Virus record (IMG/VR): IMGVR_UViG_3300031851_000053
Span: 1-40,823 of that record
Direction: 5' to 3' (one strand)
Length of the DNA stretch: 40,823 nucleotides
Source: a virus
Part shown: in pieces, positions 2,467 through 40,065 of the stretch
Numbering within the stretch: position 1 is the first letter of the stretch
Layout of the letters: every line of letters starts with the position of its first letter
The notes under the pieces: model-generated
Told to the model about the DNA's origin: nothing
The model's database searches: none
What the model saw: only the letters and a program-made list of their open reading frames with translations
Made by a program: the position numbers and the translations under genes

Positions 2467-4584
2467 ATGCAGGACATAAAGGACTACCTCCTCAATAAAA
2501 TAAGAGGAGACAACTTGGGTGTAAAGCCCAGACGTAACTTACAACTCATGCGTATGATAGATACGGATGGTGTTGACATGCTAGACTTCTTAATAGAAGA
2601 TATGGTATCCTATGCTAGAAAGGTAATTCAACGTTGCTTTAAACGCAATAAGGTAGAAGGTGAGTCAGCAATAACTCAAGCCTCTATGGCAATAGGTAAA
2701 TATATAGTGGAAGGTTGGGATAGCTCTAACGTAAATTTCAGAGATCATGTACGAGTAGGTGATCTAGTCATTGAAGGTTTCGTTATGTGTGGCTATCTAA
2801 CTATCTCTGTAGGACATATGAAGAGTCGTAAGCCAGTAACAATCCATGCCACTCCTAAGTGGGGTGAGATGGAAGTAGTTGCAGGTAAAACAACTTGTAT
2901 TAGTGCTACAGTGATTCCACCAATCAAAGGACTATTCCAAGACAACGGTAAGTCAGTTATAAAGACTTGGGATAAATCTAAAGAGCATAAGTTCTTTAAA
3001 TACCTCGACAAGCCGTTTGTAAAGGCTATAGATAAACTACAGGCAACTAGATTTGTAGTCAATAGTGATGTGCATAAGGCTATCCTAGAGAACTGGGATA
3101 TGTTCATTAGTAATGAAGAGTATAGCGGTGAAGACAAGAATGAAAACGCTAAGCTTTATCAACGTCAAGCCTCAAAGAATAGAGAAGTCAAAGAGGTCAT
3201 GGCTGCAGCAGATAAATGGTTAGACAAAGAGTTTAGCTTTTATCTTGATGCAGACTATCGAGGCAGACTATACTATAGCGAACCGTTCTTTAACTTTCAA
3301 GGGGCAGATATAGCTCGTAGTCAGTTACTGTTTGCTAAGGGTAGACTCTTCGATGAGACTGCTAACTTCTGGCTTGCAGTACATACTGCTTGCTCATTCA
3401 ATCAGTCATATAGTATAGATCAGATACCTAACTGGGCATCTTCAGACTATAAGAAGATACTATTAGAAGAAGAACTAGATACTATATCTGTAGATAAGAT
3501 GACTCTAGAAGACAGAGCTAGGTGGACTCAAGAAAACCTTGATGTGATAATAGAGATGGGTGAGATGAGAATCTTTGCAGAAGAGGCAGAGAAACGTATA
3601 GCATTCATGGCTTGTTGTATCGAGTGGTATAAGTACTCTCAGAATAAAGATGAGTTCTATACTCAGCTACCTATACCTATTGACGGAGCTAACAATGGTT
3701 GGCAACATCTAGGTGCTATGTCTAAAGACTCACTCACAGGTAGGCTCGTAGGTCTTGTACCAGTAGATATTCAGAATGACTTCTATGTACAGGTAGCTAA
3801 GAGACTCTGTGAGAGGATGCCTGAGTGGTTTGAAGAGAGGCAAATGCCTATGAAGCATATCAGGAAGGGCATAGCTAAACGAGGGGCTATGACTAGGGCT
3901 TACAGTTGTGGTCAAAAGAAGATGTCAGAGTCTATGTATAGTGACTGCTATCAGTTTGGCTACACTAAAGATTACGATATCAACACATGGGATTGTGATG
4001 AGCTTAGTAGTCAAGTGATCAGAGCCATACAAGAAGTATGTCCAGGACCATTAGACACCATGAGATACCTACAGAGGTTAGCTGATAAAGAGATATCTAA
4101 TTGGCTAGCTACATACGGTACTGATAGAGGTCGTGGTATACAATGGGAATCTGAGTCAGGCTTTCCAGTAGTATACGAATGTTATCGTACTAGACCTGCT
4201 AAAGTAGACTGTTATGGATTCAATACACCAGACGGTGAGCTAAGATTCAAGCATGTGATACGAGAGAAGACAGATATACCAGATAGACGAGGGTTTATGT
4301 GTGGTATCAGTCCTAACTTTGTTCATAGCTCTGATGCAGCCCATATGGCTCTTGTAGTAGCCGACTGGGATAGCGAGTTCGGTGCAGTACACGACTCGTT
4401 TAGTGCTCATGCGAGTAAGATAGAAGATCTTATGATAGAAGCACGAGATAAGTTCGTTAAGATATACGATAAAGAAAACTTCTACGACTCAATTCCATTC
4501 GGAAGAGGCTATGAAGGTGAGCAACCTACAATAGGTGCTTTGAATGTAAACGGAGTAATCGAATCAGATTACTTCTTCTGTTAA
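2467..4584 (+). CDS. Single-subunit phage RNA polymerase (T7/N4 RNAPII type), compact
   Basis: DNA-directed RNA polymerase of the T7 superfamily, expected to transcribe phage middle or late genes. All signature motifs are present: the RGR loop at Tyr264-Arg267 (DYRGRLYY) followed by FQGADIARSQLLFAKG; catalytic Asp406 in motif A (PIDGANNGWQH); Lys471 and Tyr479 in motif B (KRGAMTRAYSCG), with the T7 Lys631-Tyr639 spacing of eight; PNFVHSSDAAHMA; and catalytic Asp643 in motif C (VHDSF). At 705 residues it is about 180 shorter than T7 RNAP (883), with most of the loss before the RGR loop, the region that in T7 forms the promoter-binding N-terminal domain. Its size is close to the two N4 RNAPII subunits combined. 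A host-type promoter lies directly upstream. Confidence 0.95.
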   Translation: MQDIKDYLLNKIRGDNLGVKPRRNLQLMRMIDTDGVDMLDFLIEDMVSYARKVIQRCFKRNKVEGESAITQASMAIGKYIVEGWDSSNVNFRDHVRVGDLVIEGFVMCGYLTISVGHMKSRKPVTIHATPKWGEMEVVAGKTTCISATVIPPIKGLFQDNGKSVIKTWDKSKEHKFFKYLDKPFVKAIDKLQATRFVVNSDVHKAILENWDMFISNEEYSGEDKNENAKLYQRQASKNREVKEVMAAADKWLDKEFSFYLDADYRGRLYYSEPFFNFQGADIARSQLLFAKGRLFDETANFWLAVHTACSFNQSYSIDQIPNWASSDYKKILLEEELDTISVDKMTLEDRARWTQENLDVIIEMGEMRIFAEEAEKRIAFMACCIEWYKYSQNKDEFYTQLPIPIDGANNGWQHLGAMSKDSLTGRLVGLVPVDIQNDFYVQVAKRLCERMPEWFEERQMPMKHIRKGIAKRGAMTRAYSCGQKKMSESMYSDCYQFGYTKDYDINTWDCDELSSQVIRAIQEVCPGPLDTMRYLQRLADKEISNWLATYGTDRGRGIQWESESGFPVVYECYRTRPAKVDCYGFNTPDGELRFKHVIREKTDIPDRRGFMCGISPNFVHSSDAAHMALVVADWDSEFGAVHDSFSAHASKIEDLMIEARDKFVKIYDKENFYDSIPFGRGYEGEQPTIGALNVNGVIESDYFFC

Positions 4585-4596
4585 TAGGAGAATATA

Positions 4597-4848
4597 ATGG
4601 AAAATAAAAATTGGTTGGCTCAGACAGGAAGGGATTTTAAAGATTCTGATTTTGGAGAGGAGTTTGGTATACCCCAAAGTGAATGGGGTACAGGACAAAT
4701 AAATAAGATTATGTTAGATAGAGTTCATGCTATGAACCTTGCAGGTTATATAGCAGAAGGTATAGAAGAAAAGAAAGCTAGACATATGGCAGATAAAAGA
4801 AGAAGTATGGCTATGAAGGCGGCTAAAGATGCTGGACTAACATTATAA
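4597..4848 (+). CDS. Hypothetical protein, 83 aa, downstream of RNA polymerase
   Basis: Last gene of the rightward block, 12 bases after the RNA polymerase stop, with a strong AGGAG ribosome site. The 83 residues are hydrophilic: a Trp- and Asp-rich N-terminus (NWLAQTGRDFKDSDFGEEFG) and a helical, Lys/Arg-rich C-terminal half. There is no signal peptide or membrane segment. I do not recognise the family. Its location suggests co-expression with the polymerase, so a transcription-related partner is possible, but nothing in the sequence proves that. The bidirectional terminator follows within ten bases of its stop. Confidence 0.75.
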   Translation: MENKNWLAQTGRDFKDSDFGEEFGIPQSEWGTGQINKIMLDRVHAMNLAGYIAEGIEEKKARHMADKRRSMAMKAAKDAGLTL

Positions 4849-4855
4849 ATAAAGA

Positions 4856-4893
4856 TACCCCACAAGGTTTCCATAAGGATTCCCTGTGGGGTA
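4856..4893. terminator. Bidirectional rho-independent terminator between convergent blocks
   Basis: TACCCCACA at 4856-4864 pairs perfectly with TGTGGGGTA at 4885-4893, a 9-bp stem that can extend inwards past one mismatch. The + side is followed by a T-rich stretch (GTTTATTTT), and the - side reads into TATCTTTATTTATAA, so both transcripts can terminate. It sits exactly between the end of the rightward early block and the end of the leftward late block. Confidence 0.85.
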
Positions 4894-4901
4894 CGTTTAT
4901 T

Positions 4902-7900
4902 TTAAACAAAGTTATCTGTTTTATCTAGTATAGAGAAATCTCCAGGAACTCCTCCATCAAAGTTAATATCAACGCCCATGTCTTCCCAGCGTTGTTTTAC
5001 TTTTGCTATAAGTTTATTGTGATCTTTTCGTATTTGTAAATCATCTACAACTTGCATAAAGATTCTGTAAAAATCTTTAGCTTTTAATTTACGTTTACCA
5101 CCTTTAAACTCTTCAATTAATCTAGCTTGAGCTGCTGTCTTTTTTGTAGCATCAAAGATCCCTTTCTTTTCTTCTTTAGCTTTGATATAGCTTTCTTGTT
5201 TTTCTAGGCTAGCTCTTTGGAATTCTTTTTTATCATAGCCCAGTATATCAACATTGACTACTGCTTTTCGATAGCTCTCATCAGCTAAAAAGTTACCAAA
5301 CTCTCGATACTCACCTATAGGAGATAAATCTAACAAAGCCTCTGGATCACTTTCAGTTTTTTCTTTTAAACTAGCTAAGAAATTATCTAGAGATCTTTTC
5401 TCTTCGGTAAGAAGCTCCCATTGTTTCATAACATTGCCAAATTCTTCATTCATAATTTCGCTAAGTCTTACAAAACCTTTAACATCAGAAATATAACCGT
5501 CATACATTTGAATTACAAAAGCGTTTTTATCATTCTCAAGAAATCGAGTTAGACCTCTTGTAGTCATAGCCGACTCTGCAATATGTGTTGTACTAACTGC
5601 AAACTGATTCATAAGTTTACTAATGGGCTTTGGCGAAGTGTATTCTCCTGGGCTTATTTTCTTACTATCTGCTGCTGCCTGAGGGTCGTCAACCGTTCTT
5701 GTAGCAGTAATAACTGTTTCAGCACCACTAGGAAGCGTATAAACTTCTGCACTAGTAGGTACAGAACGTTTGCCTCCAAATTTGCCTATGAAACGACTAT
5801 TATCGTCAGAATCATCTAACCTTGGACCTCTTAGTTCAGGTATGGTATTACCAAAACCAAATATACGACCAATACGCTTTGCCATCTTAGCATGTTCTAG
5901 TGCACCACCAAGGGCGTTTGTTAAAGCTTCTTTAAAGTATTGACCTAGCTCTTCAAACTTTTCTTCATCAGTTATTTCTAAATCATCAAACAAATTTGCA
6001 TTGTCTTCAATGAATTTTCTAGCTGCACCAGTTTGAAATCGAGGTTCAAGACCAAAGATAGACGTCATAATAGGAGACTTAAGCAAATCTTTTGTTTTAC
6101 CTGCTTCTTCTATTTTTTTAAATATAGTAGACCAGACTTGCCAATTAGAATTATCAGCATGAATCTCAGGTAAATCTTTTATGTAATTAAAAACAAAGTC
6201 TCTTATATCTTCGCCTATTTCTTCTTCGCTTTTAAATAACATTCCACCTCGAACAATAATTTCTTTGACTCCCATTTGAAAGCCTTGAATTGTTGCACCG
6301 TTAGAGATTCCATCTACTTCTCCAGTAGCTCTTGTGTTCATTTGAGCACCCTTAGCTGTCTTATTATATCGAGCTAATTGAACTAGATTATTTAATCCAA
6401 AATAAAATTCATTTTTACCTTGGTCGTCTACAAAGGCTTCTAAATCAGGAGTTAATTGTAATCCAGGAATCACTTCTAAATTTTCTGCAATAACATTCAT
6501 GTCATCTTCAGAAGCATTCTCTAAGGTAGGGGCATTGGTTGCTACATAGTTAAATAAAGGTTCAGATAAGCTACTTAGCCTAACGTAATCATTTTTAAAG
6601 GCTTCTAATAAAGGAACGTAGCCTTGTTTAGCTATCTTATCTGCATCAGTAACAAGAGTTCTTGCCATGACAATCATAAAGTGTTCTTCTTCAGTATAGC
6701 TTTGATTTATTTTTTTACGACCTTCTTCGTTGAGACCTAGCTTAGCTTTCTTAATAGCACTATCTATTACTGCAGTAGGAGTAGGGTTGCCATTAACTAC
6801 TTCTGAAGTCTTAGTCAATGTAGTTGGCATTGCTCCTTTAAGTATGGCTCTTGCAAACTTATGAAATCCAGGGTTTGCCTCGTCATTAATATAAAACATA
6901 CGACCAGTGCCGCTGACTATTGTACTGTCTGTGTATACTACTTTTCCAAGCTTTACTAACGAAGAATTTAATATCTTACTCTTTTCATTATCGATATCTC
7001 TGAGCACTTGTCTAGATTTTATATCAGCCGCTTCTTTAAATGTTTTTACTATAACACCAAAGCTATTTCTTATTTCTAATTGTTCTGGAGTTAACCCTTC
7101 TTTTTCCTTTCGACCTTCAAAGTCTTCTAAAAATTTATTTTCAAGCTTTATTTGAGTCATCATATCTTGTTTCATATATTTAGAAATTGTATTGCTCATA
7201 GAGTTCTTTATTCCAAACCCCATTATAACAGAAGCTGGGTCAAAAACCATAGCTACGTCATTGAGTAATGACAAAACTTTTTCTTGTGCTGGAACAGGAT
7301 TTACATTAGACAGACCTTTAGTTGTTACTCTAGTAAAATAATTAGCTTCACTAACCATAGATGAGCCTGCTTTATAAGGAGTTCCAGTGGTTCTTAAAGG
7401 TTTTAAAAAATCATTATATCCTAACGCTTTCTTTAAACCGTTTCGTATTTTATTTAATGAGACATCTCCAATTCTAGTTTGATTAAAGACAATCTTTTTT
7501 CTACCTGAATCAGGATCAACTATCGTTCTAGATTCTAACCAAGGGAAAGAGTCAGACTCTGCAAAGGCTTGTAGAAAGTATTGACCAGCATTGTCTTGTT
7601 CAGTATCAGTAAGTCTATATTTATATCCTGTATTCTCGATCTCTCCGAAGAAAGCAGTTGGGTCTTGATCAGCACTAGGATATGTCATTTGCTCAAATCT
7701 TCGCATAACTTTTTTACCAAGCTCTTGCCTTGATTGAGAGTTATTAAATCGTCTTTCACTAGGTATGCCTGATTCATACTTTTGATCGTCAAATGAGCTT
7801 AACATTTCAAACATTATGGCTAATCCCAGAATAGAGCCTGCCGCTCCTCTTAACGGAGCATTAGGATCTGTTTGATTAGTTGATAAATTTAATTTATTAG

Positions 7901-8570
7901 GAGAACGCATAACAAAGTTAACATCATTAGCTTCTCTCCTAAGAAAGTCAGTAGCTTCTAATGCAGTCATTGGTGTTGTATCATCTTTAATATTAAGGTT
8001 CATAGCTCCAAAGATATTGTCTGTTCCTTTATTTGCTTTACCTAGAGAAGAAACAAAATCCTTAACAAATTCTTGATCCGAATTATCTTCACCTTGCTTT
8101 ATAGGGAAATATTCTTTTAAACCTTCTGGCGTAACGATTGTACCTAGTCGTGTTCCTATGTCTCTGTTTATTCTACCTTCTTTGATATCGAAGTTAATAT
8201 CTTCGGCTATTTCTTCTCGTGTAGCATCACGAGGTATCGAAGGATCTAATACCGATTCATCTTCTCTTGTTAACGACTTTTTTCTAGCAACAGTTTCATT
8301 AATAAGGGCTTGACTAGCTGCAACAGGTCGCTCCCCCATTGTTGGCATTTCAGTAGGTAGCTGTCCACTAGGTATTGCTCCCCTATTTTTTCTAGCAATA
8401 ACTTCAGGGTCATCTGCTGAGACAACCCCTCCAGTTAATTCTTGTTCTGCAACTTGCCTTAACTGTTCTTCGTCTTGTTTTTTATTTTTCTTAAGAGCTA
8501 AGGCTGCATCCAATTTTTCTTGGCTTATAGCAGTATCTTTTCTTGTAGCTCCTTTACCTCTACCTATCAT
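4902..8570 (-). CDS. N4-type virion RNA polymerase homologue, compact form
   Basis: The 1222-residue protein carries the conserved core of the phage N4 virion RNA polymerase in the right order. Seen: SGTGRMFYINDEANPG with Arg557 (T/DxxGR motif), EVDGISNG with Asp753 (motif A), KDLLKSPIMTSIFG with Lys831 and Phe839 (motif B), and IQMYDGYISD with Asp1024 (motif C). From memory these align with N4 mini-vRNAP Arg424, Asp559, Lys670, Tyr678 and Asp951. DPNAPLRG at 235 also matches an N4 segment at a similar position. N4 gp50 is about 3500 residues; this is close to its 1100-residue catalytic core plus a charged, disordered-looking N-terminus. The catalytic Tyr of motif B is Phe here. It is the last gene of the late block, after the ejection proteins, with ribosome site AGGAG, so packaging and injection are inferred. 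Confidence 0.85.
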   Translation of the reverse strand: MIGRGKGATRKDTAISQEKLDAALALKKNKKQDEEQLRQVAEQELTGGVVSADDPEVIARKNRGAIPSGQLPTEMPTMGERPVAASQALINETVARKKSLTREDESVLDPSIPRDATREEIAEDINFDIKEGRINRDIGTRLGTIVTPEGLKEYFPIKQGEDNSDQEFVKDFVSSLGKANKGTDNIFGAMNLNIKDDTTPMTALEATDFLRREANDVNFVMRSPNKLNLSTNQTDPNAPLRGAAGSILGLAIMFEMLSSFDDQKYESGIPSERRFNNSQSRQELGKKVMRRFEQMTYPSADQDPTAFFGEIENTGYKYRLTDTEQDNAGQYFLQAFAESDSFPWLESRTIVDPDSGRKKIVFNQTRIGDVSLNKIRNGLKKALGYNDFLKPLRTTGTPYKAGSSMVSEANYFTRVTTKGLSNVNPVPAQEKVLSLLNDVAMVFDPASVIMGFGIKNSMSNTISKYMKQDMMTQIKLENKFLEDFEGRKEKEGLTPEQLEIRNSFGVIVKTFKEAADIKSRQVLRDIDNEKSKILNSSLVKLGKVVYTDSTIVSGTGRMFYINDEANPGFHKFARAILKGAMPTTLTKTSEVVNGNPTPTAVIDSAIKKAKLGLNEEGRKKINQSYTEEEHFMIVMARTLVTDADKIAKQGYVPLLEAFKNDYVRLSSLSEPLFNYVATNAPTLENASEDDMNVIAENLEVIPGLQLTPDLEAFVDDQGKNEFYFGLNNLVQLARYNKTAKGAQMNTRATGEVDGISNGATIQGFQMGVKEIIVRGGMLFKSEEEIGEDIRDFVFNYIKDLPEIHADNSNWQVWSTIFKKIEEAGKTKDLLKSPIMTSIFGLEPRFQTGAARKFIEDNANLFDDLEITDEEKFEELGQYFKEALTNALGGALEHAKMAKRIGRIFGFGNTIPELRGPRLDDSDDNSRFIGKFGGKRSVPTSAEVYTLPSGAETVITATRTVDDPQAAADSKKISPGEYTSPKPISKLMNQFAVSTTHIAESAMTTRGLTRFLENDKNAFVIQMYDGYISDVKGFVRLSEIMNEEFGNVMKQWELLTEEKRSLDNFLASLKEKTESDPEALLDLSPIGEYREFGNFLADESYRKAVVNVDILGYDKKEFQRASLEKQESYIKAKEEKKGIFDATKKTAAQARLIEEFKGGKRKLKAKDFYRIFMQVVDDLQIRKDHNKLIAKVKQRWEDMGVDINFDGGVPGDFSILDKTDNFV

Positions 8571-8582
8571 TATATATTCTCC

Positions 8583-11500
8583 TTAATATGGCTCTAATCT
8601 ATCACCATGCATTATTTGATTTATAAGTCGTCTCCCAGGAGTAAATGGTGCTATTCCAGGAGTTAACTTTGTTAATCCACCGACACCTCTCCGAGTATCG
8701 CCTTCCGCAAATGCCATTAATGACTTACCAGCGGTCTCTATATTACGAACAAAAGGAGCACCTCCTATTGACTCTCCAAATATTCTATCTATTATACCTT
8801 CATTTCTGTCTTTATATAAAGGTGCAACAGCTTGTAATACCCTTTCTCCAGAGCCTAGTACTCCTGAAGCCATCAATGCTCTTTGTACTAGCTGAAAATC
8901 AGTTAAATAAGGACTACTTTTTCCAAACTTAATATAGTCTTTAAGCCATTGCGATACGCCTGCTAATGCCATCATAAGCACTATTAATGCAAAAGTATTA
9001 TATCTCATAGCTGGAGTTCCGTTTTTAATATAGTCTTGCCATAGCCTAGGTATAATAACTGCAGTAAAATTAGATATGAATCCATTAAACTGTAAGAACA
9101 ACTGATAGTGTGGGTCTTGAAATATAAGAGGTCTATTAAATCCTTGAGGATTCTGTATTCTCTCATTAGTAAAATACCAAGTAGCCACTTGCATTTGATC
9201 TTGTATAAATGCAGCATCAGTCTTTGCTTGCTCTCTTTCCTTAGGATCAGTTATACTAGAGAAGTCTGCTTCGTATAGTACATCATACATCTCTGGATCA
9301 GTATACTTATCAAACATATCTATCATGGCATCAACATCTAGACCTATATCTGCTAATTGTTGATATATAGCTAATTGTTTTTGATTATAATTAACAGTAC
9401 CATCATTTTGTCTTGCCGCCCATAGCAGTCTTAGCCTATCACTAACAACGCCTGATGCCAGTGCCGCCATCCCTGCTCTTTGAAATGTGGTTTGAGGTGC
9501 TATTAAAGTAAACTTAAAGAATTGTTTCATCCACCACGCTTGAGCAATATCTGCTTCACCCATACCGAGTCTAGTCGCAGCTACTGCATCATCATCATAC
9601 ATCCCTGTCGCTGACAGTCTTTGAACTGCTTTATTAGACTTAGGTACATCAGGTATGTTCTGTAAAGCAGGATTTTGAGGCATATTCTCAATGTTCTTTA
9701 TTATACCTACCATTTCTTTTATGGCTTTAGTTATACCTTTTCTTACAGTTGAAGATTGTGGTCCTTGATATAGTAACATAGCATATTCAACAAAAGAAGC
9801 TAGTACAGACATTGGGAGACCTATAATTGCAGAAAAGAAACTGGCTTTTCGTTGCCAGAAAGATAGCTCTTTACTCTCTATTCTATTATAATTACCAGTA
9901 TCTGCATCAATAATATCTTTAACACCCATAGCTACTTCTTGCATTTCTTCTGGAGTTAAAGCACCTTCATCTTCCATTTGTTTAAACATATAGTCAAGGT
10001 CTTGTCCACCTCTACCAAAGTATTTTGTATAAGTTATATACTTAACGCTTTGATCTATTAATTTAATTTGATTTTGAACTATATCTGTATTAGCAAATTG
10101 TTTAAATCCTTCAAGAGCACTCAGTGGTTCACCATTCTTTTGTTTAAAGTCATTAGGTCTCCACATTGAGCCATCAACCATTGAGAAATCAGTTGCATCT
10201 TCGTTATTAGATATTTTATTATAAAGTATATTTAATTCAACATCAAGATAAGGCTTATTATCAGGAGCTAATGCATTGGCTTTCATAAAACTTAACCATG
10301 CTTCTTTATTTTCTCTGACTTTTCTCCAATCAAAAGTACCTGCATTAAGCCATTGAGGATTTTGTTTATCGACAACTCTTCTTTTAAAGAAAGAATTATC
10401 TATCTGTTCCATTTTAAATTCTTCGTCATAGACTTGTTGTAACGAATCATTTAGGTTTTTGATTGTTTGTTCTAAAGCTAATTGATTATTGATCATATCA
10501 GGAGTTAACTGAGCACCAGTTCTTTTAGCTTCCATATACGCTCTTAACAACGTAGATATGTAGTTATAATTACTTTGTTTATCAGAAAGATTAAATGCTT
10601 TTAATATACCTTTAGGGTTTAAAGTTTGCAATATCATAGAGCGTAGTATAGCAGCATAGCCAGAAGCATTAACACCGCTGTATATGTTACCTAACGCAGT
10701 ACCGACTAACGAAGCTAGCTTACGTAATGTCTTACTCTTCCTTAATAATGCAGGTGTGAAAACAGAAGTTGATCCAGCACGATAACCTAGTGGTAACCAC
10801 TTTTTAAAGTTTTTAAGCTTATCCCAAGTTGTTCTATCTCTTTTTTCTTGAGCTTTTCTTGCTTCCCCTTCTAGACGATATGCACTAGCAATAGAATCAG
10901 GTCTATTGGCTGGTTTAACTTTGGTCTGTTTAGATACTTGTATATTCTTAGATTGCTCTAAAGTTAATGGCTCAACACCGCTATCTCTAAGAGCTTTTTC
11001 TGCATTTAAAGCTTTAAGAGTTATTCTAGCATTGTTTAATTCTTTCCTAATAACTTCTACAGGTCTCTTATCTTCAATAGATTTTAAGAGAGCATTTCTT
11101 TCTTTAACTAAGTCTGAATACTCTTTAACTCTATCAAATTGATCTTGTTGAGTACCTTTATCTCTGACATTAAGTTGTTTAATAACTGCTATTCTATCTT
11201 CAATATTTTTTATAGCCTGTTGAGTTCCAGAAGTATTAGTTCCTTGTTTAGTACTGTCTCTTTCAGTCTTAAGCCTTTCAATATCTTGTAGAGTTGAATC
11301 TAATATGCTATCAAGATCTGTGTTTTCTAATAAACCAACTTGTGGATTACCATAAGTCGGTATTGTATCAATTCTTTTATAATCAGGTTGAGTTAAATAA
11401 GTTTCGTTTGCTTGTGAAGCAGCAACTCCTTCTTTGTTTTTTTCAATAATAGTTTCTATATTTTCTGAAATAACACGACCATCTTCGGTCACAGTCTTAT

Positions 11501-13154
11501 CTGGTTTAAACTCTTCTCTTACCTGAGCATATTCACTAAGCTTACTTCTATCTCCTGCTGCAAGATCAGCCATCAAAGATCTATTTTGACCTTCCCTAAC
11601 TAAAGCTCCAGCCGTTCCAAAAGAAGAACCAAGAGAAGAACCAGCAACTGCTGATTGTGCTAATAAGTTTTTAAACTCATCTATATCAAAATTCTTTTCA
11701 AGCCCACCTTCTGACATGCCTTTAGATGCGAGGTAGCCGACTCCCTCTTGAGCCGCCTCAGTAACACCTTCAAATGTAGCACCTCTAACAGAACCTTTAG
11801 CCATCTCTTTCATAAGACTAGGCTTGGCGACATTTAATAAGGCGAAGTTACCTATACCATCTATGGTCTCTCTTATTGCTCTGCGACTAGCATTATTTAA
11901 AGCTTTCTTTGCTGCGGCTTTAGTTTTATATTTACCAGTCTGCATCATAGCCTGTAATATTTGCACCTTACCTCTTTTAGTAAGGAATTCTCCAGGTTTC
12001 ATAAAGCCTTTCATACCAAGGTAATCAAGAGCAGTCATAATTGTACCAGCTAAAATTGCTCCGCCAGCTTGTGCTCGACCCTTTGGTCCTTCAATATCAT
12101 TAAATACCTGACCAGCATAGCTTCCACCAACAGAACCTAAAGCAATAGGTACTGAAGCACCAAAAGTAAATGGCGATAATACTGCACCTGAGAGTAACGT
12201 TACTAAATAAGGTGCTGACATAGCCATGTTATTAGTCATAAAACGGAAACCATCCCATACACTATCTATATCTCGATAGTCCATGCTTCGAAGTCTTGGT
12301 TCATTTAATAAATCTTCTTTAGCAACTTCAACTTTTCTTCCAGCCCAATCTTGCAGATCTTTACTGCCGACTAATACGCCTGCAAGCTCTGCAAAGCCTT
12401 TCCAACCAGTAGCTAAACCTCCCCAACCTTGATTCCAAGCAGTACTGGTTTGATTATAAGCCACACCTTCTTTAGTCCTATCAGGACTTCTAAATTGCAA
12501 GTTCTCAAATGCAATGCTTCTTTTATCGTAAGATCCTGAGTCAAGTATTTTACTTGCTTTTCTCATGTCGTCAGGGTTAGATAGGTTAAGACCGTTTTGA
12601 TTAGCAATTACTTGTATGACTTGTTGTGCATAACTATTTTCATCTAATGGAATCTCCCCAAATGCTTGTTCAAGTATAGGAGTGTCTTTCATATAGATAG
12701 GTTTTTCTGGCATTTCTTCTTGTGTAATAGATGCGTAAGGATTAGATATACCAGCTTCTCTTTCAAGCTCACCGTATTGTCTAGCTTTTAAGCCATCTTC
12801 TGTTGTATACTTATCAACAGTTAATAAACCAGATTGATAAAGAGTATCAGACAATTCGTTACCGTATTCGTCTTGTAGACTAATTAGCTTACGACCAAAC
12901 TTATCTTCTTCACCATCATCAACAATGTTAGTAAAACCACCTGCAGCTGCAATTCTTTTAGTTGCCTCTGTTTGTGCTTTACCTCCTTGTTGTCCTTGTT
13001 TAAATCTAAGATTACCTTCTTCATCTTCAAATACATGGGGAGTTTCTAATGCATTAAATCCTTTAAGTCTATAACTAGTTGCTCCGTCAGTAACAGTGTC
13101 GGAATCTAGCCATGCATATGTCTTACCATCGTTTCCTTGAAATTCATTAATCAT
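8583..13154 (-). CDS. Giant internal virion/ejection protein with N-terminal SNase-like domain
   Basis: A 1523-residue protein, probably packaged and injected, in the position of T7 gp16. Residues about 5-135 look like a staphylococcal nuclease domain: DSDTV with Asp19, YRLKGFNALETP with Arg29 and Glu37, DKFGRKLISL with Arg88, and a final LSDTLYQSGLL. These match SNase Asp21, Arg35, Glu43 and Arg87; the Asp40 position is Asn34. Next come a hydrophobic, Gly-rich stretch near 310-385, a long charged coiled-coil-like region near 608-732, and a large helical C-terminus with a membrane-like helix near 1385 (ALIVLMMALAG), ending in a basic Pro/Gly-rich tail. It lies between the transglycosylase protein and the vRNAP homologue. 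The nuclease call rests on motifs; the ejection role is inferred from size, order and composition. Confidence 0.75.
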   Translation of the reverse strand: MINEFQGNDGKTYAWLDSDTVTDGATSYRLKGFNALETPHVFEDEEGNLRFKQGQQGGKAQTEATKRIAAAGGFTNIVDDGEEDKFGRKLISLQDEYGNELSDTLYQSGLLTVDKYTTEDGLKARQYGELEREAGISNPYASITQEEMPEKPIYMKDTPILEQAFGEIPLDENSYAQQVIQVIANQNGLNLSNPDDMRKASKILDSGSYDKRSIAFENLQFRSPDRTKEGVAYNQTSTAWNQGWGGLATGWKGFAELAGVLVGSKDLQDWAGRKVEVAKEDLLNEPRLRSMDYRDIDSVWDGFRFMTNNMAMSAPYLVTLLSGAVLSPFTFGASVPIALGSVGGSYAGQVFNDIEGPKGRAQAGGAILAGTIMTALDYLGMKGFMKPGEFLTKRGKVQILQAMMQTGKYKTKAAAKKALNNASRRAIRETIDGIGNFALLNVAKPSLMKEMAKGSVRGATFEGVTEAAQEGVGYLASKGMSEGGLEKNFDIDEFKNLLAQSAVAGSSLGSSFGTAGALVREGQNRSLMADLAAGDRSKLSEYAQVREEFKPDKTVTEDGRVISENIETIIEKNKEGVAASQANETYLTQPDYKRIDTIPTYGNPQVGLLENTDLDSILDSTLQDIERLKTERDSTKQGTNTSGTQQAIKNIEDRIAVIKQLNVRDKGTQQDQFDRVKEYSDLVKERNALLKSIEDKRPVEVIRKELNNARITLKALNAEKALRDSGVEPLTLEQSKNIQVSKQTKVKPANRPDSIASAYRLEGEARKAQEKRDRTTWDKLKNFKKWLPLGYRAGSTSVFTPALLRKSKTLRKLASLVGTALGNIYSGVNASGYAAILRSMILQTLNPKGILKAFNLSDKQSNYNYISTLLRAYMEAKRTGAQLTPDMINNQLALEQTIKNLNDSLQQVYDEEFKMEQIDNSFFKRRVVDKQNPQWLNAGTFDWRKVRENKEAWLSFMKANALAPDNKPYLDVELNILYNKISNNEDATDFSMVDGSMWRPNDFKQKNGEPLSALEGFKQFANTDIVQNQIKLIDQSVKYITYTKYFGRGGQDLDYMFKQMEDEGALTPEEMQEVAMGVKDIIDADTGNYNRIESKELSFWQRKASFFSAIIGLPMSVLASFVEYAMLLYQGPQSSTVRKGITKAIKEMVGIIKNIENMPQNPALQNIPDVPKSNKAVQRLSATGMYDDDAVAATRLGMGEADIAQAWWMKQFFKFTLIAPQTTFQRAGMAALASGVVSDRLRLLWAARQNDGTVNYNQKQLAIYQQLADIGLDVDAMIDMFDKYTDPEMYDVLYEADFSSITDPKEREQAKTDAAFIQDQMQVATWYFTNERIQNPQGFNRPLIFQDPHYQLFLQFNGFISNFTAVIIPRLWQDYIKNGTPAMRYNTFALIVLMMALAGVSQWLKDYIKFGKSSPYLTDFQLVQRALMASGVLGSGERVLQAVAPLYKDRNEGIIDRIFGESIGGAPFVRNIETAGKSLMAFAEGDTRRGVGGLTKLTPGIAPFTPGRRLINQIMHGDRLEPY

Positions 13155-13177: not shown

Positions 13178-13230
13178 TATCCCTAAGGGATTCTCCCCTA
13201 TAAGGGTGTGTTAAGAATCTCTTAGGGATA
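13178..13230 (-). terminator. Long hairpin between two ejection-protein genes
   Basis: TATCCCTAAG (13178-13187) pairs with CTTAGGGATA (13221-13230); the stem extends to about 17 bp with one mismatch (13178-13194 with 13214-13230). On the - strand it follows the transglycosylase gene stop within a few bases and is followed by a T-rich CCTTATTTATAA. It could be a partial terminator or an RNA-processing site that tunes expression of the two last, very large genes. A + strand terminator is less likely, as no gene reads into it. Confidence 0.6.
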
Positions 13231-13233
13231 ATG

Positions 13234-15381
13234 TTATTTTCCGTATCCAGCTTTCACTAAAATATCTTCTATTTCTTTTTCAGATGTCTTAGAGACCCAA
13301 TAAGAAAAAGCATCCCAGCCTTTTCCTTTATCGTCAAGTCTTGCTTCAACGTCTTTTAATAGATTACCATAAGCAACCTTATCATTCCTTACCATCCATT
13401 TAAAAGCTATCTCTCTATATCCAAATTCTTTTTCTAATTGAGTTTGAAATCGAGGATCATCTTTAGCGTATGGTATATTATTAGTTACCATATCTTGTAT
13501 TGATTCAAGATTCTTTTCAGTAGTATTTTTAACCATGCCTTGATCAATACCTGTTAGTGGTACAAAGACTTCAGCATTTAAATATGATCTTAAAGTTACT
13601 GGTGCTTCCGACTTATTAATCTTAGCCTGAACTTTAGCATCTAGGTATTTAGCAATACCACGATTAATTGCTGCTTCATAAGCTGGAGCATCATTAACAG
13701 ATATAGCATTCCGTCTTAAAACATTTCTATAAAAAGCATTTGCTTGTTGACCTAAATCGTTAGCATTAATTTTAACTGTATTATCACTTGGTTTATCACC
13801 ACCGACTTGTTTAAGCCCATACTCATCATTAGCAACTTTTATTTGTGAATTTGCATTATCAGCAAAACGTTTAGATACAGCTACGTCTCCGTGTACCTGT
13901 GAATCCATCTTTTCTACTCGACCTCTAAGGTCTGGATGGTTAGGTGATTTGTATTGACCTCTATGAAATACCTTAGTCGTACCATCACTCATCGTGAATG
14001 TAGGTAGCTGACCAAAACCTCTTGCATATACACTTCCTGCTGGAGCTTTAACAGTTAGTGTTTTAGCCTTAGGTATAAGTACGTCTATGTCACCTGTTCT
14101 GGCATATTCTTTAAGTGAATCCATTTCAAAATCATCACGAGCTTTTTCTGTAAGAGCAAACTTTTTAGCCGCCTCTGCATTAGCATCAACACGCTTTATA
14201 TAGTTCTTCATAGAATAATTTAGAGAGCCGCCATGGTTATACCCCATAGCACGAGAACCAGCATATATAATAGCCATCCTTGCGAGTTCTTCACCGTTAA
14301 ACATACTTGAAAAGGCATCTTTAAAATACTCCATTGATTTGTCTAAGATAGGACCACCAACTTTTTTACCTTTATCAATAAACTTTTCAACAATATTTTT
14401 TTCTGGATTATCTTTTATCCATTGAGTTACTTCTTCATTGTTCATTACTGTTTGATCAATATCTTCTTCATCATTTAATTGGTCTGTTACTTTTTGTGCA
14501 GCTATCTTTTTTGCTTCCATATCTGCGGTAAGCTCACCACCACTTGGGTCTTCATCTACTATGCTCTCTACTGAAAGAGAATCTGGTGAAATACCAGAAG
14601 GTCCAAAGTGAGAATAAATATTTTTGTCTAGCCCACCATATCCAACACCATCTTTTTGAGGGTTAGGTATTTCTTCATTTGTCCTATTACCATAATTCTG
14701 TGCATTAGGATAAGATAATTCATTACCATCGTACATAGCTGTTTGTACTGGAACATCGCCTATCTCAGCGTTCACCTTACCAGCATACGCCTGACCAACA
14801 GGTCCGATGTTATCCTTAAGTACATTACCAGCACCTGAATGATATGCAGTTAGTACCTGATCTTTAGTAAACTCTGGATGCTGCTTAATAATACCTTGTA
14901 GATATTGTTTAGCAAATGCCCTAGACTTTTCTGGATCAAAGCGATCTTCAAGAGAGATAGGTGTTGTGCCATATCCAGGTTGTTGTGCTGTCTTAGGCAT
15001 AATTTGGTATTGACCACCAGCCCCTACGCCTGAAAGAGCATTAGGATCACCGCCAGATTCTACCTGTTTGATAGCATCTAGCATAGCATCATCGACAATA
15101 ACTCCGCCATCAGCATTATAGCTAGGTATCGGTCCACCTTGCTTCTTCTGTATAGCACGACCAGCATCATTAAGCTTATCTAACATAGGTTGTACTCCAG
15201 GAAGTCTCGATGCTTCTGCATTCACTACGTTTTCTCCAGGAGTTAACATAGCAGGTACAGTATCAGTTCCCTTTGGTTTAAATATCTCTGGGTTAGGAAT
15301 CTCTTGCATAGAAGGAACATCGAATTCGTAGGAAAACATATTTCCATACCTATCTTTTTCTGTGTACTTTTTAATGTTCAT
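13234..15381 (-). CDS. Virion protein with lytic transglycosylase (SLT) domain
   Basis: A 715-residue protein, probably ejected to open peptidoglycan during DNA entry. Residues about 97-200 form an SLT/goose-lysozyme fold: AIKQVESGG with catalytic Glu108, GAGGQYQIMPKTA, and TAYHSGAGNVL. Upstream, GTDTVPAMLTPGENVV (38-53) is a motif common in phage tape-measure and injection proteins. The remainder, about 500 residues, is acidic and helical with no recognised domain. The start overlaps the stop of the preceding gene as TAATG. The domain is clear; its role as part of a cell-wall-penetrating ejection complex follows from its neighbours and the T7 gp16/P22 analogues. Confidence 0.85.
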   Translation of the reverse strand: MNIKKYTEKDRYGNMFSYEFDVPSMQEIPNPEIFKPKGTDTVPAMLTPGENVVNAEASRLPGVQPMLDKLNDAGRAIQKKQGGPIPSYNADGGVIVDDAMLDAIKQVESGGDPNALSGVGAGGQYQIMPKTAQQPGYGTTPISLEDRFDPEKSRAFAKQYLQGIIKQHPEFTKDQVLTAYHSGAGNVLKDNIGPVGQAYAGKVNAEIGDVPVQTAMYDGNELSYPNAQNYGNRTNEEIPNPQKDGVGYGGLDKNIYSHFGPSGISPDSLSVESIVDEDPSGGELTADMEAKKIAAQKVTDQLNDEEDIDQTVMNNEEVTQWIKDNPEKNIVEKFIDKGKKVGGPILDKSMEYFKDAFSSMFNGEELARMAIIYAGSRAMGYNHGGSLNYSMKNYIKRVDANAEAAKKFALTEKARDDFEMDSLKEYARTGDIDVLIPKAKTLTVKAPAGSVYARGFGQLPTFTMSDGTTKVFHRGQYKSPNHPDLRGRVEKMDSQVHGDVAVSKRFADNANSQIKVANDEYGLKQVGGDKPSDNTVKINANDLGQQANAFYRNVLRRNAISVNDAPAYEAAINRGIAKYLDAKVQAKINKSEAPVTLRSYLNAEVFVPLTGIDQGMVKNTTEKNLESIQDMVTNNIPYAKDDPRFQTQLEKEFGYREIAFKWMVRNDKVAYGNLLKDVEARLDDKGKGWDAFSYWVSKTSEKEIEDILVKAGYGK

Positions 15382-22804: not shown

Positions 22805-24553
22805 CTAAGCACACTCTCGTACGCCAGTCGCTGGGTCGATAAAGCAAGCTTCAGCCTTGTCTTCTTCTTGAGCCACTTCCTCATTCTTGCCAGATACCTT
22901 CGCTTCTTCTTCCACGGTTTCGTTAAAGATTCCGTATCGCTTTCCATCAATGCGGAACGTAGTACACCCTTTCGCCCCACCTTTCCATGCATTAACATAT
23001 ACTTGTTTGAATGAATCATAGTCCACATCACCACTAACGTTACAAGTTTTTGAACATGCACTGTCAATATAGTGTTGAGCTAATAATAACACATCTAGGT
23101 GGTCATTAACGCTAATGCTATCTGCAGTGCGACCCTCGACTCCATGTGAGTACGCATAATCTTTTACGGTCTCAACAATCGGTCCATCAAATGTCTGTAT
23201 CGTTCTATCGTACTTATGACTGAAGACAGGTTCAATTCCTCCGCTAACGTTATCACCGACAATACTAATTGTACCTGTAGGTGCTATTGATGTAAGATGA
23301 CTGTTACGAATTCCGTGTTCTCTTATAAGACTCTGAACGGAAGCTGGTAACGACCTAATGTAGTTACTTTTGAGGTAGTCCTTCCTATATAATGGGAAAG
23401 CACCTTTATCTTTTGCTAACATAGCCGAAGCTCTATAGCAATTATCTCTTAGACATGCGAATATCTTCTCTGCCCATGTCATAAATTCTTTAGATGCATA
23501 TGGATATCCGAGCATCTCACCAGCATTTGCCATGCCTGTAACACCTAGACCCATACGTCTTTTATTCTTAGCCTCATCTTCTTGTGCTTTAAGTGGATAT
23601 ATAGTTCTATCAACGACATTATCCATAGCTTGAACAACTGGCTTTATATCTTTTTTAAATTGTTTAAAGTTAAATACATAACCTTTCTTTTCTTTCTCAA
23701 GATACTTAGTGAGGTTAAATGATCCTAATAGGCAAGCACCGTATGCTGGCAAAGGTTGTTCTCCACAAGGATTAGTTGCGTATATCTCTTCACAGTACCA
23801 TAGGTTATTCATCTCACTAATACGATCAATAAATAAAACTCCAGGCTCTGCCCAATCCCAAGTAGACGACATTATCTCATCCCACACTTCTTGTGCTGAA
23901 AGAGTGCCTCTCACTTCACCGTTAAAGAATAACTCATAGTCAGTTCCATTCTCTAATGCTTCCATGAATGCATCTGTAATACCTACTGAGATATTAAAAC
24001 CAGTTAGCTTATCATTACTACGCTTAGCTCGTACAAAGTCTAGTACATCAGGATGGTCGATTCTTAGTACACCCATTTGTGCTCCTCGTCTATGACCAGA
24101 GCTAGCTATTGTTTGACAAACAGAATCAAAGACTTGCATGAATGAGATAGGTCCACTAGACTTACTATCAAGAGACTTTATATGGTCTCCTCTAGGTCTT
24201 AGCTTACTAAAGTCGTAGCCTATACCACCACCCTTTCTCATTGTCTCTGCAGCTTCACTTGCTCTTTGCATAATAGATTCCATGCTATCCTCTATCTCTC
24301 CTGATACAAAACAATTATATGCAGTAGTGATACGGTTAGAACCTATTGCAGATTGTACTCGACCTGCAGGAAGGAATCTCATTTCTCCTAATATATCTTC
24401 TAGTACGAATCTATGTTCGTCTCCATCTGATAAAGCCTTAGCTATTCTTTTTATCTTATCATCGAAGGTCTCTCCCTTCTGTCTGTATTTCATCTCATCT
24501 ATTTCTTGAGAAATGGTCATTACTGGACCTTCATAGTTTCTATTTCTTAGCAT
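22805..24553 (-). CDS. nrdJ: Class II (adenosylcobalamin-dependent) ribonucleotide reductase
   Basis: Reduces ribonucleotides to deoxyribonucleotides. The 582 residues carry the core motifs: YNCFVSG with Cys81, GGGIGYDFSKLRPRGD, SSGHRRGAQMGVL, the finger loop NPCGEQ with Cys263, Cys274 in GACLLGSFNL, and APTGTISIVGDNVSGG. The Cys263-Cys274 spacing of 11 matches class II enzymes (I recall Cys322/Cys333 in Thermotoga maritima NrdJ), not the ~23 of class I. No small subunit or activase gene is visible, also as expected for class II. The C-terminal tail ends with Cys570 and Cys581, probably the thioredoxin-facing redox pair. It needs host cobalamin. It lies in the late block between lysozyme and nozzle, far from the dCMP deaminase it works with. 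Confidence 0.93.
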   Translation of the reverse strand: MLRNRNYEGPVMTISQEIDEMKYRQKGETFDDKIKRIAKALSDGDEHRFVLEDILGEMRFLPAGRVQSAIGSNRITTAYNCFVSGEIEDSMESIMQRASEAAETMRKGGGIGYDFSKLRPRGDHIKSLDSKSSGPISFMQVFDSVCQTIASSGHRRGAQMGVLRIDHPDVLDFVRAKRSNDKLTGFNISVGITDAFMEALENGTDYELFFNGEVRGTLSAQEVWDEIMSSTWDWAEPGVLFIDRISEMNNLWYCEEIYATNPCGEQPLPAYGACLLGSFNLTKYLEKEKKGYVFNFKQFKKDIKPVVQAMDNVVDRTIYPLKAQEDEAKNKRRMGLGVTGMANAGEMLGYPYASKEFMTWAEKIFACLRDNCYRASAMLAKDKGAFPLYRKDYLKSNYIRSLPASVQSLIREHGIRNSHLTSIAPTGTISIVGDNVSGGIEPVFSHKYDRTIQTFDGPIVETVKDYAYSHGVEGRTADSISVNDHLDVLLLAQHYIDSACSKTCNVSGDVDYDSFKQVYVNAWKGGAKGCTTFRIDGKRYGIFNETVEEEAKVSGKNEEVAQEEDKAEACFIDPATGVRECA

Positions 24554-24582
24554 AATATTACCTCTATTGTTAATGACGGACT

Positions 24583-24603
24583 GCCCCTTAAAGGGCGTTT
24601 TTT
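24583..24603 (+). terminator. Terminator-like hairpin oriented on the + strand
   Basis: GCCC at 24583-24586 pairs with GGGC at 24593-24596; on the + strand this is followed by G and six T residues (24598-24603). On the - strand, the direction of all local genes, no T run follows. It lies in the gap between the lysozyme stop and the RNR start. The stem is short but GC-rich in an AT-rich genome. Confidence 0.5.
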
Positions 24604-24606
24604 ATG

Positions 24607-25023
24607 CTAGTCTTGATACTCGCCAGTCTTAATCATCTGGGTAACTTCTTCTGCTCTACTGCCTACTTGCTTAGCCCAATTCGAGTCTAGCATTTCAGTA
24701 GCCGCAGTGTCGTAATCGTGTTCCTCTAATGCTGCCATAGCATTTTTAAACTTCATTGTAGTGCCTATGCCTACGTTAAATACAAAGTTAATAAGTGCTT
24801 CTTGTCTCACTTGATCTAGATCTCTATGCCAAGGTATGTAGTCATCCATAAGTTCTTTTGTTCTCACTATGTCATTTAGTAATAACATATCAATCTCTTC
24901 TTCAGATAATCCTACATCTTCTAGGTTTCTACCCACACCTATTGTCCATTTATCTGAAGTACATTTATATAATGTGTTTTTCACACCCTCATGTCTTCTA
25001 AGTATCTCTATCAATCTGCTCAT
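24607..25023 (-). CDS. T4-type lysozyme (GH24 endolysin)
   Basis: Muramidase that degrades the cell wall at lysis. The 138 residues fit a short GH24 lysozyme. The catalytic signature is E-8aa-(D/C)-5aa-T: Glu12 in RRHEGV, Cys21 in LYKCTSD and Thr27 in WTIGVGR. T4 lysozyme has Asp20 where this has Cys21, a variant known to keep activity in this family. Further family segments are QEALINFVFNVGIG and the C-terminal SRAEEVTQMI. There is no signal peptide, so release should depend on the holin three genes upstream. The ATG overlaps the preceding gene by four bases. Length is at the short end of the family but complete. Confidence 0.93.
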   Translation of the reverse strand: MSRLIEILRRHEGVKNTLYKCTSDKWTIGVGRNLEDVGLSEEEIDMLLLNDIVRTKELMDDYIPWHRDLDQVRQEALINFVFNVGIGTTMKFKNAMAALEEHDYDTAATEMLDSNWAKQVGSRAEEVTQMIKTGEYQD

Positions 25024-25277
25024 GCTTTCCTCGCTTTAGTTATCTTCTTTTTAGCTGCAGGAGTGTTTGCTGCAAACTGTTTACCTTTCTTAATAGCCGC
25101 TCTCTTTGCCCTAGTGGTTGAAGCGTGTTCGCCTCTCGTGAGAGACTTAACAGCTGAAGCTGGCATATAACGCTCGCCAGTAGCGTTCTTACCTTGGATA
25201 GAATTCTTTCCACTTTTAGTTCTCCATTTTTGATTAGTCCACTTGGTTAAACTCTTTTGTTCTTTAGTCTTTGCCAT
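25020..25277 (-). CDS. Small basic protein, DUF5872-like, 85 aa
   Basis: A highly basic 85-residue protein. The segments LTKWTNQKWRTKSGKNS, GERYMPASAVKSL and TRAKRAAIKKGKQF follow the pattern of a small family I recall as DUF5872, found in phages, giant viruses and some bacteria, of unknown function. The C-terminal 20 residues are Lys/Ala-rich, like a nucleic-acid-binding tail. It overlaps both neighbours by one to four bases, within the lysis segment. DNA or RNA binding is plausible from charge alone; I cannot support a more exact role. Confidence 0.7.
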   Translation of the reverse strand: MAKTKEQKSLTKWTNQKWRTKSGKNSIQGKNATGERYMPASAVKSLTRGEHASTTRAKRAAIKKGKQFAANTPAAKKKITKARKA

Positions 25278-25474
25278 TACGATGTATAACCTCCTCCTTT
25301 AGCTTTATACTCCTTAGCCACCATCTGCATTTTTCTTGCAGAGTTCTGTCCAGGCTTTCCTCCTTTATTTCCAGCAAGTATTCTCTTATATATGCTGGCT
25401 CTTAGTGAAGGTTTAGTATAATTACCAGAGGCATTAACTGTTGACTTCTTCTTTAATGGTACTTTCTTTTTCAT
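25277..25474 (-). CDS. Small basic protein, 65 aa, NYTKP...KGGKPGQ type
   Basis: A 65-residue, strongly basic protein beginning MKKKVPLKKKST, then NYTKPSLRASIYKRI, GNKGGKPGQNSARKMQM and a Gly-rich end. I recall similar small proteins in many marine phage genomes but no established function. Its first 20 residues resemble residues near 125-145 of the 221-residue Lys-rich head-region protein (KKKVPMKKKS followed by N/S-rich sequence), suggesting shared origin. A strong GAGGAG ribosome site precedes the ATG. The start lies inside the small Cys-rich ORF upstream. Confidence 0.75.
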   Translation of the reverse strand: MKKKVPLKKKSTVNASGNYTKPSLRASIYKRILAGNKGGKPGQNSARKMQMVAKEYKAKGGGYTS

Positions 25475-25550
25475 TACTATTCTCCTCGTGACATTTACAA
25501 TTACATTCTTCTACTACACATTCGTATAGTGCACAAGTCTCACATCTCAT
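25434..25550 (-). CDS. Tiny cysteine-rich protein, 38 aa, possible zinc-binding
   Basis: The start overlaps the holin stop (ATGA), preceded by AAAGGA at a good spacing. In the first 21 residues there are six cysteines and one histidine: Cys3, Cys6, Cys11, Cys16, Cys18, Cys20 and His21 (MRCETCALYECVVEECNCKC at the start). The rest is acidic and ends EEVNS. CxxC followed by CxCxCH could hold one zinc ion. The gene overlaps the next one by 41 bases in another frame. The coupling, ribosome site and striking Cys pattern support it; no homologue is known to me. Confidence 0.55.
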   Translation of the reverse strand: MRCETCALYECVVEECNCKCHEENSNEKESTIKEEVNS

Positions 25551-25942: not shown

Positions 25943-26082
25943 TATAAATGCTCCAAGTGACAGTGTTTACTTGCAGGTACAGTCAATGCAGTTTTTGCAA
26001 CACCCATGCCACATGAACTTAGCAACATTACAGATATACTTAATAACACTAAATTGTAATAATTTTTCTTTAAACATTTCAT
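25942..26082 (-). CDS. Small lipoprotein, 46 aa, possible outer-membrane spanin-like role
   Basis: A 46-residue ORF with a textbook lipoprotein signal: basic start (MKCLKK), hydrophobic core (residues 11-21, LVLLSISVMLL) and lipobox LSSC with Cys24. The mature part is only 23 residues (starting CGMGVAK) and contains a second Cys at 41. The start overlaps the upstream gene (ATGA) and the stop overlaps the holin start (TAATG). Its place directly before the holin suggests a lysis function such as an o-spanin, but it is very short for that and lacks an obvious Pro-rich region. An entry-exclusion lipoprotein is another possibility. Confidence 0.65.
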   Translation of the reverse strand: MKCLKKNYYNLVLLSISVMLLSSCGMGVAKTALTVPASKHCHLEHL

Positions 26083-27709: not shown

Positions 27710-27712
27710 GCT

Positions 27713-28009: not shown

Positions 28010-28010
28010 G

Positions 28011-28649: not shown

Positions 28650-28650
28650 G

Positions 28651-29190: not shown

Positions 29191-29191
29191 G

Positions 29192-29758: not shown

Positions 29759-29759
29759 A

Positions 29760-30403: not shown

Positions 30404-30405
30404 TT

Positions 30406-31491: not shown

Positions 31492-31492
31492 T

Positions 31493-31636: not shown

Positions 31637-31645
31637 TCTTGTCTC

Positions 31646-38931: not shown

Positions 38932-40065
38932 TTAATTTAAACCGTAGATAGCACCACAACCTGATGGGTTGCGTACTTCTAGAGTTGCTTCTTCGACCAT
39001 CATTCCTTTAGTTGAATCACCTTGCTGACCTACATCAACTTCTTTTAGAGGTCTTAGTGTTGCCATAGCGAACCACTGTGGATCGTAGATAAGTGCTGAG
39101 AAGTTAGCAACATCAGTTGTTGCACCTAGGTTAGTTGTACCGTTAGTTTGAGTAAACTGAACAGCATTAGTTAATCCCATGATGTAGTTTGGTACTACCA
39201 TTAGATCACCAAAGTCTGACATGTATACGTCTACTGACTGTCTTAACTTTCCTTTCTCATCGATGTTTCTTACAACACCAGTATCGCTGATCATTAAGTC
39301 TGAGAAATCTCTTCTTAACTTAGGAGATATCATTATCTTAGTTGCCTTACCGCCTTCTTCGTAGATTTTCTGCATTACAGAATCAATCTCTGAAAGTGAT
39401 AATGAACCTTTAGCTGGTTGTCCAGCTGCAGCAGCATTTGATTTAATCTTACCAGTACCGTCACCCATTGTTGCTGGGGCTTCCCAACCACCTAAGTAGT
39501 TTACTGTTGCAGTATCATTTATAAATGCCTGATATCCACCTGCAGTTCTTGCGTTTGCGTTTTGAACACCGACCGCACCAGAAACGTTAAACGAATGAAT
39601 CATATCATGCTCGACATCTCTTCTTAGCTCTGTACCTCTTTTCTTTAACTGATATGCATATTCGTCTGCAACACCAGCCTGATCTACAGCTCTTCTAGTT
39701 CCTGACACAGCAATGGTTTTACCGTTAATCTGTGTGTAGTTACCTAGTCTGGTTCTATTTGGTCCACTTTCAGCAAATTTATTTCCGACTGCTGGAGTTC
39801 CAGTACCGCCACCAGCTGCAGGCTGAATGTAATCAGTACCTTCACCAATAGTAGAATTTCCAGGAACTTCTAACTTGTCTGTTTGCCATTCGTGATAAAT
39901 AGCAGTTGCTTTTGCACTGCCGATTGATGACATAAAAGGAGTTTCATCCCTTGTTATCATCGTGATAAAATTTGCAAGATCTTCTCTTTGTGAGACATCT
40001 TTGCCTGTACCCCTAGCTGGACCTTGTGGACCGCCAGTTCCTCTTACGCCTAATACGTTAGTCAT
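38932..40065 (-). CDS. Major capsid protein (SU10/DUF5309-type HK97 fold)
   Basis: Main head protein. The 377 residues follow the SU10-type major capsid pattern: an N-terminal arm with SQREDLANFITMITRDETPF, then YHEWQTDKLEVPGNSTIGEG, NRTRLGNYTQINGKTIAVSG, the spine helix DEYAYQLKKRGTELRRDVEH, a Gly/Ala/Thr-rich loop, and the C-terminal A domain (LSEIDSVMQKIYEEGG, YMSDFGDLMVVPNYIM, PQWFAMATLRPLKEVDV). There is no protease gene or cleavable delta domain in view. A very strong ribosome site (GGAGGG) precedes the ATG and a terminator follows the gene, as expected for the most abundant virion protein. The scaffold-like gene lies upstream. Confidence 0.9.
   Translation of the reverse strand: MTNVLGVRGTGGPQGPARGTGKDVSQREDLANFITMITRDETPFMSSIGSAKATAIYHEWQTDKLEVPGNSTIGEGTDYIQPAAGGGTGTPAVGNKFAESGPNRTRLGNYTQINGKTIAVSGTRRAVDQAGVADEYAYQLKKRGTELRRDVEHDMIHSFNVSGAVGVQNANARTAGGYQAFINDTATVNYLGGWEAPATMGDGTGKIKSNAAAAGQPAKGSLSLSEIDSVMQKIYEEGGKATKIMISPKLRRDFSDLMISDTGVVRNIDEKGKLRQSVDVYMSDFGDLMVVPNYIMGLTNAVQFTQTNGTTNLGATTDVANFSALIYDPQWFAMATLRPLKEVDVGQQGDSTKGMMVEEATLEVRNPSGCGAIYGLN

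Follow-up and report, generated by a model that had tools for sequence, protein, structure and literature searches.

A probable compact relative of the N4 virion RNA polymerase, encoded together with a T7-type RNA polymerase in a phage likely to lie outside Schitoviridae

A giant single-chain virion RNA polymerase (vRNAP) was described in a 2025 structural study as unique to, and a hallmark of, Schitoviridae, and in N4 the corresponding gene ends the late strand, next to the ejection proteins (PMC12633501). T7 enzymes are early products of the infected cell and are not packaged. In jumbo phages and in Thermus phage P23-45, a virion polymerase starts early transcription and a second phage enzyme follows (PMC10612078, PMC10770324). 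A protein of the N4 kind has also been claimed outside Schitoviridae, namely ORF30 of Poorviridae (PMC11654794), which we take to be, by gene order, the 3421-aa CDS at 24147-34412 of record L056 (OR779980). No RNA polymerase profile was matched by this presumed protein, which instead gave matches to DNA-methyltransferase and further large phage families and was rejected as a precedent. It was the one published non-Schitoviridae claim found in the literature searched, which did not cover most subscription papers or bioRxiv, and an earlier description remains possible.

The window, that is, the whole stretch of DNA analysed here, is a single virus record of 40,823 bases without the start of the early region, the portal or the terminase. 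The run of genes that starts with the capsid gene and finishes with the gene under study is on its minus strand, and the latter gene is convergent with the early genes.

4902..8570, minus strand: putative compact virion-type single-subunit RNA polymerase of 1222 aa (vRNAP-like protein), last late gene
4849..4901, no strand: terminator-like inverted repeat, ACCCCACA...TGTGGGGT, lying where the convergent blocks of genes meet (by direct reading of the sequence)

Used alone as a query, the window protein retrieved nothing significant from Pfam, PHROGs, the PDB (phmmer, by sequence) or 50,697 phage records (tblastn). Its top PDB sequence match, an engineered chalcone isomerase, was discarded as spurious, a two-sequence profile found no match in the PDB, and no homolog was detected when 84,980 genomes of bacteria and archaea were scanned. 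IMG/VR contigs carrying homologs were reached via the neighbouring gene and then by alignment, and the comparison set comprised 14 family members and 11 Schitoviridae vRNAP polymerase regions. The protein measures 1156-1291 aa in the complete relatives, its N-terminus of about 160 residues is variable, and dN/dS values of 0.08-0.20 in close homolog pairs indicated strong purifying selection.

The 14-member profile matched the Schitoviridae vRNAP polymerase domain at 98.7% (E=3e-16, score 157), and a five-member profile matched the 11 Schitoviridae regions at 98.3% (E=2e-14), these E-values applying to single comparisons. None of the 21 controls (the profile reversed, plus 20 versions with shuffled columns) scored above 26, versus 157. 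When the homolog of relative L016 was searched by tblastn against all 50,697 phage records, 17 records of 68-73 kb were matched (best E=1e-5); 12 of the matched loci were annotated as virion RNA polymerase or RNA polymerase, 4 as hypothetical and 1 had no feature, and the matches corresponded to N4-type vRNAP genes only. T7-type profiles scored 30-49, as opposed to 157 for the vRNAP profile, with E=0.03 for an Autographiviridae-type profile and E=2e-4 (47.9%) for a mixed one. The window protein belongs to the same superfamily as the T7-type enzymes, not to the T7-type family, and is nearer in sequence to the Schitoviridae vRNAPs.

Four motifs were present in the 1222-residue protein: SGTGRMFYINDEANPG (R557), GEVDGISNG (D753), KDLLKSPIMTSIFG (K831) and IQMYDGYISD (D1024). 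The published N4 positions R424, D559, R666, K670, Y678 and D951 were confirmed in the N4 sequence, and a profile-profile alignment in which no motif was imposed paired the four residues with N4 Arg424, Asp559, Lys670 and Asp951, respectively, and Phe839 with Tyr678.

6900..6902, minus strand: Arg557 codon (T/DxxGR motif; N4 Arg424), by profile alignment, invariant in 14/14
6312..6314, minus strand: Asp753 codon (motif A; N4 Asp559), by profile alignment
6078..6080, minus strand: Lys831 codon (motif B; N4 Lys670), by profile alignment, Lys in 13/14 and Arg in 1/14
5499..5501, minus strand: Asp1024 codon (motif C; N4 Asp951), by profile alignment

Since Arg557, Asp753 and Asp1024 are invariant in 14/14 homologs and the Lys831 position is nearly so, the four motifs are more than a chance occurrence. 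The TxxGR motif has lost its Thr or its Gly in 12 of the 14 family members, and the N4 specificity-loop residues are not evidently kept in the window family, although this is a weak, low-confidence part of the alignment. Motif B reads K-x-x-I-M-T-x-x-F-G in the window protein, with Y-G in its relatives, and resembles KRGAMTRAY of the T7-type enzyme of the same phage; by direct reading, motif C does not contain HDE, a DNA polymerase feature used here for comparison. Because of the likeness in motif B and the lack of HDE in motif C, RNA synthesis is favoured, the activity itself being inferred.

Residue 839 (codon 6054-6056) occupies the Tyr position of motif B (T7 Tyr639, N4 Tyr678); the window protein has Phe there, and the 13 other members have Tyr. 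The motif B Tyr helps to select rNTPs over dNTPs, and Phe at this position relaxes the sugar discrimination of the T7 enzyme.

An AlphaFold2 model was computed from 16 sequences for residues 161-1222. Its mean pLDDT was 69.7, with most of the polymerase region at 80-90 and disorder over the first 50 residues. When the model was compared with the PDB, every one of the top 50 matches was a single-subunit RNA polymerase (T7, N4 mini-vRNAP and the mitochondrial enzymes of yeast and human), and in BFVD the top query-normalised TM-scores, 0.46-0.47, were obtained with proteins as large as vRNAPs, of which two come from N4-type phages. The predicted fold class, a single-subunit RNA polymerase, is secure, but the moderate TM-scores leave the fine structural detail insecure, and no residue-level superposition in three dimensions is available. 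One might still argue, given the empty single-sequence searches, that the motifs arose by chance in a protein unrelated to RNA polymerases. This is contradicted by three separate lines, the controlled profile comparison, the tblastn search through a relative and the predicted fold, and can practically be dismissed.

A first-pass annotation, made from the sequence alone, had reported a 1222-residue ORF with these four motifs and had matched them to N4 vRNAP. The ORF, the motifs as quoted and the match all held, the strand, which had not been given, being minus. The claimed compactness held as well (1222 aa versus 3500 for N4 gp50 and 1106 for mini-vRNAP), as did the expectation that annotators would call the protein hypothetical, ordinary annotation finding nothing. 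The claim of a polymerase is supported by the predicted fold, and the correspondence with the N4 residues holds in profile alignment, not by 3D superposition.

The genes upstream on the late strand were then considered together with the capsid gene.

8583..13154, minus strand: 1523-aa virion/ejection-type protein with an SNase-like N-terminus, directly upstream of the vRNAP-like gene (PHROG 6958, a virion structural family, E=1.4e-14)
13234..15381, minus strand: 715-aa ejection-type protein with an SLT transglycosylase domain (PF01464, E=5e-17; internal virion protein PHROGs)
38932..40065, minus strand: major capsid protein (PHROG 1328; N4: PHROG 1357)

The 1523-aa protein is a homolog of gp34 of Roseobacter phage CRP-7, and together with the 715-aa protein it has the make-up of an ejection cassette, an inference that rests on sequence only. 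The earlier claim that the vRNAP-like gene is the last late gene among ejection-protein genes held, the gene lying at the end of the late strand with SLT-domain and virion structural neighbours. The view that the phage is not N4-like overall held in part: it applies to the capsid protein and the size of the genome but does not extend to all remote homologies. The CRP-7 portal falls in PHROG 1216, as does the N4 portal, yet its listed tblastn relatives are LUZ24/phiEco32-type phages. By its capsid the phage lies outside Schitoviridae, with some remote shared ancestry.

Some further features of this region were recorded. The N-terminus of the 1523-aa protein contains a staphylococcal-nuclease-like stretch (DKFGRKL...LYQSGL), and its L039 homolog gave a Pfam SNase match of E=0.0027, under the curated cut-off. 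The peptidoglycan-cleaving domain is swapped within the same ejection-type protein, being an SLT transglycosylase in the window (13234-15381) and a phage lysozyme in a relative (L013:5958-8882). A ribonucleotide reductase large-subunit gene lies amid the virion genes (22805-24553, minus strand), and its CRP-7 counterpart is annotated in two pieces, gp44 and gp46, with gp45 between them.

A second polymerase gene, missed by the first-pass annotation, is encoded on the opposite strand.

2467..4584, plus strand: T7-type single-subunit RNA polymerase of 705 aa, near the early-strand end (PHROG 414, E=1.8e-93; tblastn matches in 2,564 phage records)

This gene is convergent with the vRNAP-like gene in every relative found. 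The T7-type polymerase is 74-98% identical among relatives, and the vRNAP-like protein 25-31% identical to other members. Compared with L031, a sharp mosaic break was observed at the 4584-4902 junction, where the primase, deaminase and T7-type polymerase are 98-99% identical, a small ORF 56% and the vRNAP-like protein 29%.

Such rapid divergence beside a well-conserved T7-type polymerase could be taken to mean that the vRNAP-like protein is an ejection protein keeping the polymerase fold as a scaffold, without RNA synthesis, and Phe839 and the altered TxxGR motif would also fit. Against this, both catalytic Asp residues and Arg557 are unchanged in 14/14 sequences, the Lys831 position admits only Lys or Arg, and close pairs are under strong purifying selection, so that we regard the scaffold reading as very improbable. 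Alternatively, the protein could be an active RNA polymerase of the same fold that is made in the infected cell and not packaged, either a second middle/late enzyme or a replication primase. With a T7-type polymerase also encoded, a division of labour in the cell is conceivable, and there is no virion proteomics. However, the gene ends the strand of virion genes beside SLT-domain and virion structural proteins, as in N4, and its closest homologs are virion enzymes, which makes an unpackaged enzyme unlikely.

A promoter-like element and a hairpin were found in the gap before the ejection/vRNAP gene pair.

13192..13215, minus strand: 24-base promoter-like element CTTAACACACCCTTATAGGGGAGA before the ejection/vRNAP gene pair, in the same gap in ten relatives
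13178..13230, minus strand: hairpin around the promoter-like element (fold -25.8 kcal/mol, z=-4.25)

A PSSM built without the window scored 39.2 at the element versus at most 17.9 in ten shuffles. The ten relatives carry it at the same place with no more than 2 mismatches within a 15-base core, and in two relatives it also precedes the terminase gene and occurs on the early strand. The element resembles the T7 promoter, and we infer that it is likely to be the promoter from which the T7-type enzyme reads the ejection/vRNAP pair. The same CCCTTATAGGGG element could fold into a stem of 4 bp closed by a 3-nt loop, and a hairpin promoter of the vRNAP was weighed as a reading of it; a T7-type promoter was preferred because the element precedes late genes and stays constant alongside a T7-type enzyme of 74-98% identity, in contrast to the diverging vRNAP. 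As for N4-like hairpin promoters, the early start regions of G001 and of G003 showed no hairpin in common, and the short hairpins there and in CRP-7 were unremarkable.

The 13178-13230 gap is shared by L013, L016-L018, L029, L031-L034 and L036, and in relatives the end of the hairpin is T-rich. A terminator and the promoter seem to overlap here, possibly as one element.

CRP-7, a podovirus without synteny with known isolates (PMC6918029), is the closest cultured phage by capsid (52% identical) and T7-type RNA polymerase (33%). Its gp33, annotated as hypothetical, has the position and length of the window protein. Its match to the 14-member profile reached 82% or 95.5%, according to which profile served as query, with motifs B and C in register; compared directly with the vRNAP profile, it gave no match. 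An AlphaFold2 model of the gp33 family reached a pLDDT of just 39, the alignment being of too little depth, and the fold of gp33 is unconfirmed. On profile comparison and position only, gp33 is probably a homolog of the window vRNAP-like protein. A TAGTCCATTATTAAAAGGGA-type element occurs in CRP-7 (MK613349) at 2027 +, 7148 +, 14765 +, 38260 - and 57210 -. These five sites are intergenic, with at most 3 mismatches, and one immediately precedes the T7-type polymerase gene; by inference, the element is likely to be the promoter of the CRP-7 T7-type polymerase.

We assign a probability of about 0.75 to what best explains the locus, namely that the gene product is a virion RNA polymerase, compact and stand-alone, with homology to the catalytic domain of N4 gp50. 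The polymerase family, the conserved catalytic residues, the gene position and the second polymerase are supported by computation; packaging, injection, activity and promoters are inferred. We thus probably face a vRNAP core devoid of the large terminal domains of N4, found outside Schitoviridae and paired with a T7-type polymerase. In the proposed mechanism, the vRNAP-like protein would be made late, packaged in few copies and ejected with the DNA, and would then transcribe the opposite-strand early genes, which end with the T7-type RNA polymerase. From promoters of the CCCTTATAGGGG type, the latter would transcribe the middle genes and the late ones, the ejection/vRNAP pair among them. The roles of the extra gp50 domains might fall to the large neighbouring protein or to the variable N-terminus, or might be unneeded. 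The first-pass annotation had already proposed an injected polymerase independent of host RNA polymerase, every part of which (packaging, injection, activity and independence) remains inferred, host independence being the least supported step. Counting against a packaged vRNAP are the lack of any vRNAP promoter found, a specificity loop not evidently kept from N4, and the TxxGR motif altered in 12/14.

A bolder reading would be that a small-phage lineage including CRP-7 injects a compact vRNAP for its early genes and then relies on its own T7-type polymerase, so that the whole infection would proceed without host RNA polymerase; the 3500-residue N4 protein would be an expanded version of the system, and the compact enzyme would represent it in a separate or earlier form. 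We lean slightly against this reading.

Should the virion of this phage carry the protein, as that of N4 does, the use of injected single-chain polymerases would extend beyond the N4 family. Set against another type of capsid, a natural core-size enzyme would reveal what a phage can spare of gp50, would separate packaging from catalysis and would offer a smaller enzyme for studying polymerase passage through a short tail, and a genome with both a vRNAP and a T7-type polymerase would bring together the two classic single-subunit strategies. As CRP-7 is in culture, the prediction is testable.

Regarding known systems, the proposed strategy is the same as that of the virion polymerases of jumbo phages and P23-45, but these are relatives of cellular multisubunit RNA polymerases, with an unrelated fold. 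The T7-type (Autographiviridae) RNA polymerases share superfamily and fold with the window protein, and one is encoded in the same phage, but their sequence similarity to it is far weaker. With N4 gp50 and the other Schitoviridae vRNAPs, the window protein has in common the homology of the polymerase domain, the catalytic residues in register and the position as last late gene beside ejection proteins; it differs in lacking the large N- and C-terminal domains and in promoter contacts that are not evidently kept, and the two phages differ in capsid family and genome size. Given its 1222 aa (1156-1291 in complete relatives) versus about 3500, we place it in the vRNAP branch as a compact variant and not as a gp50-type protein.
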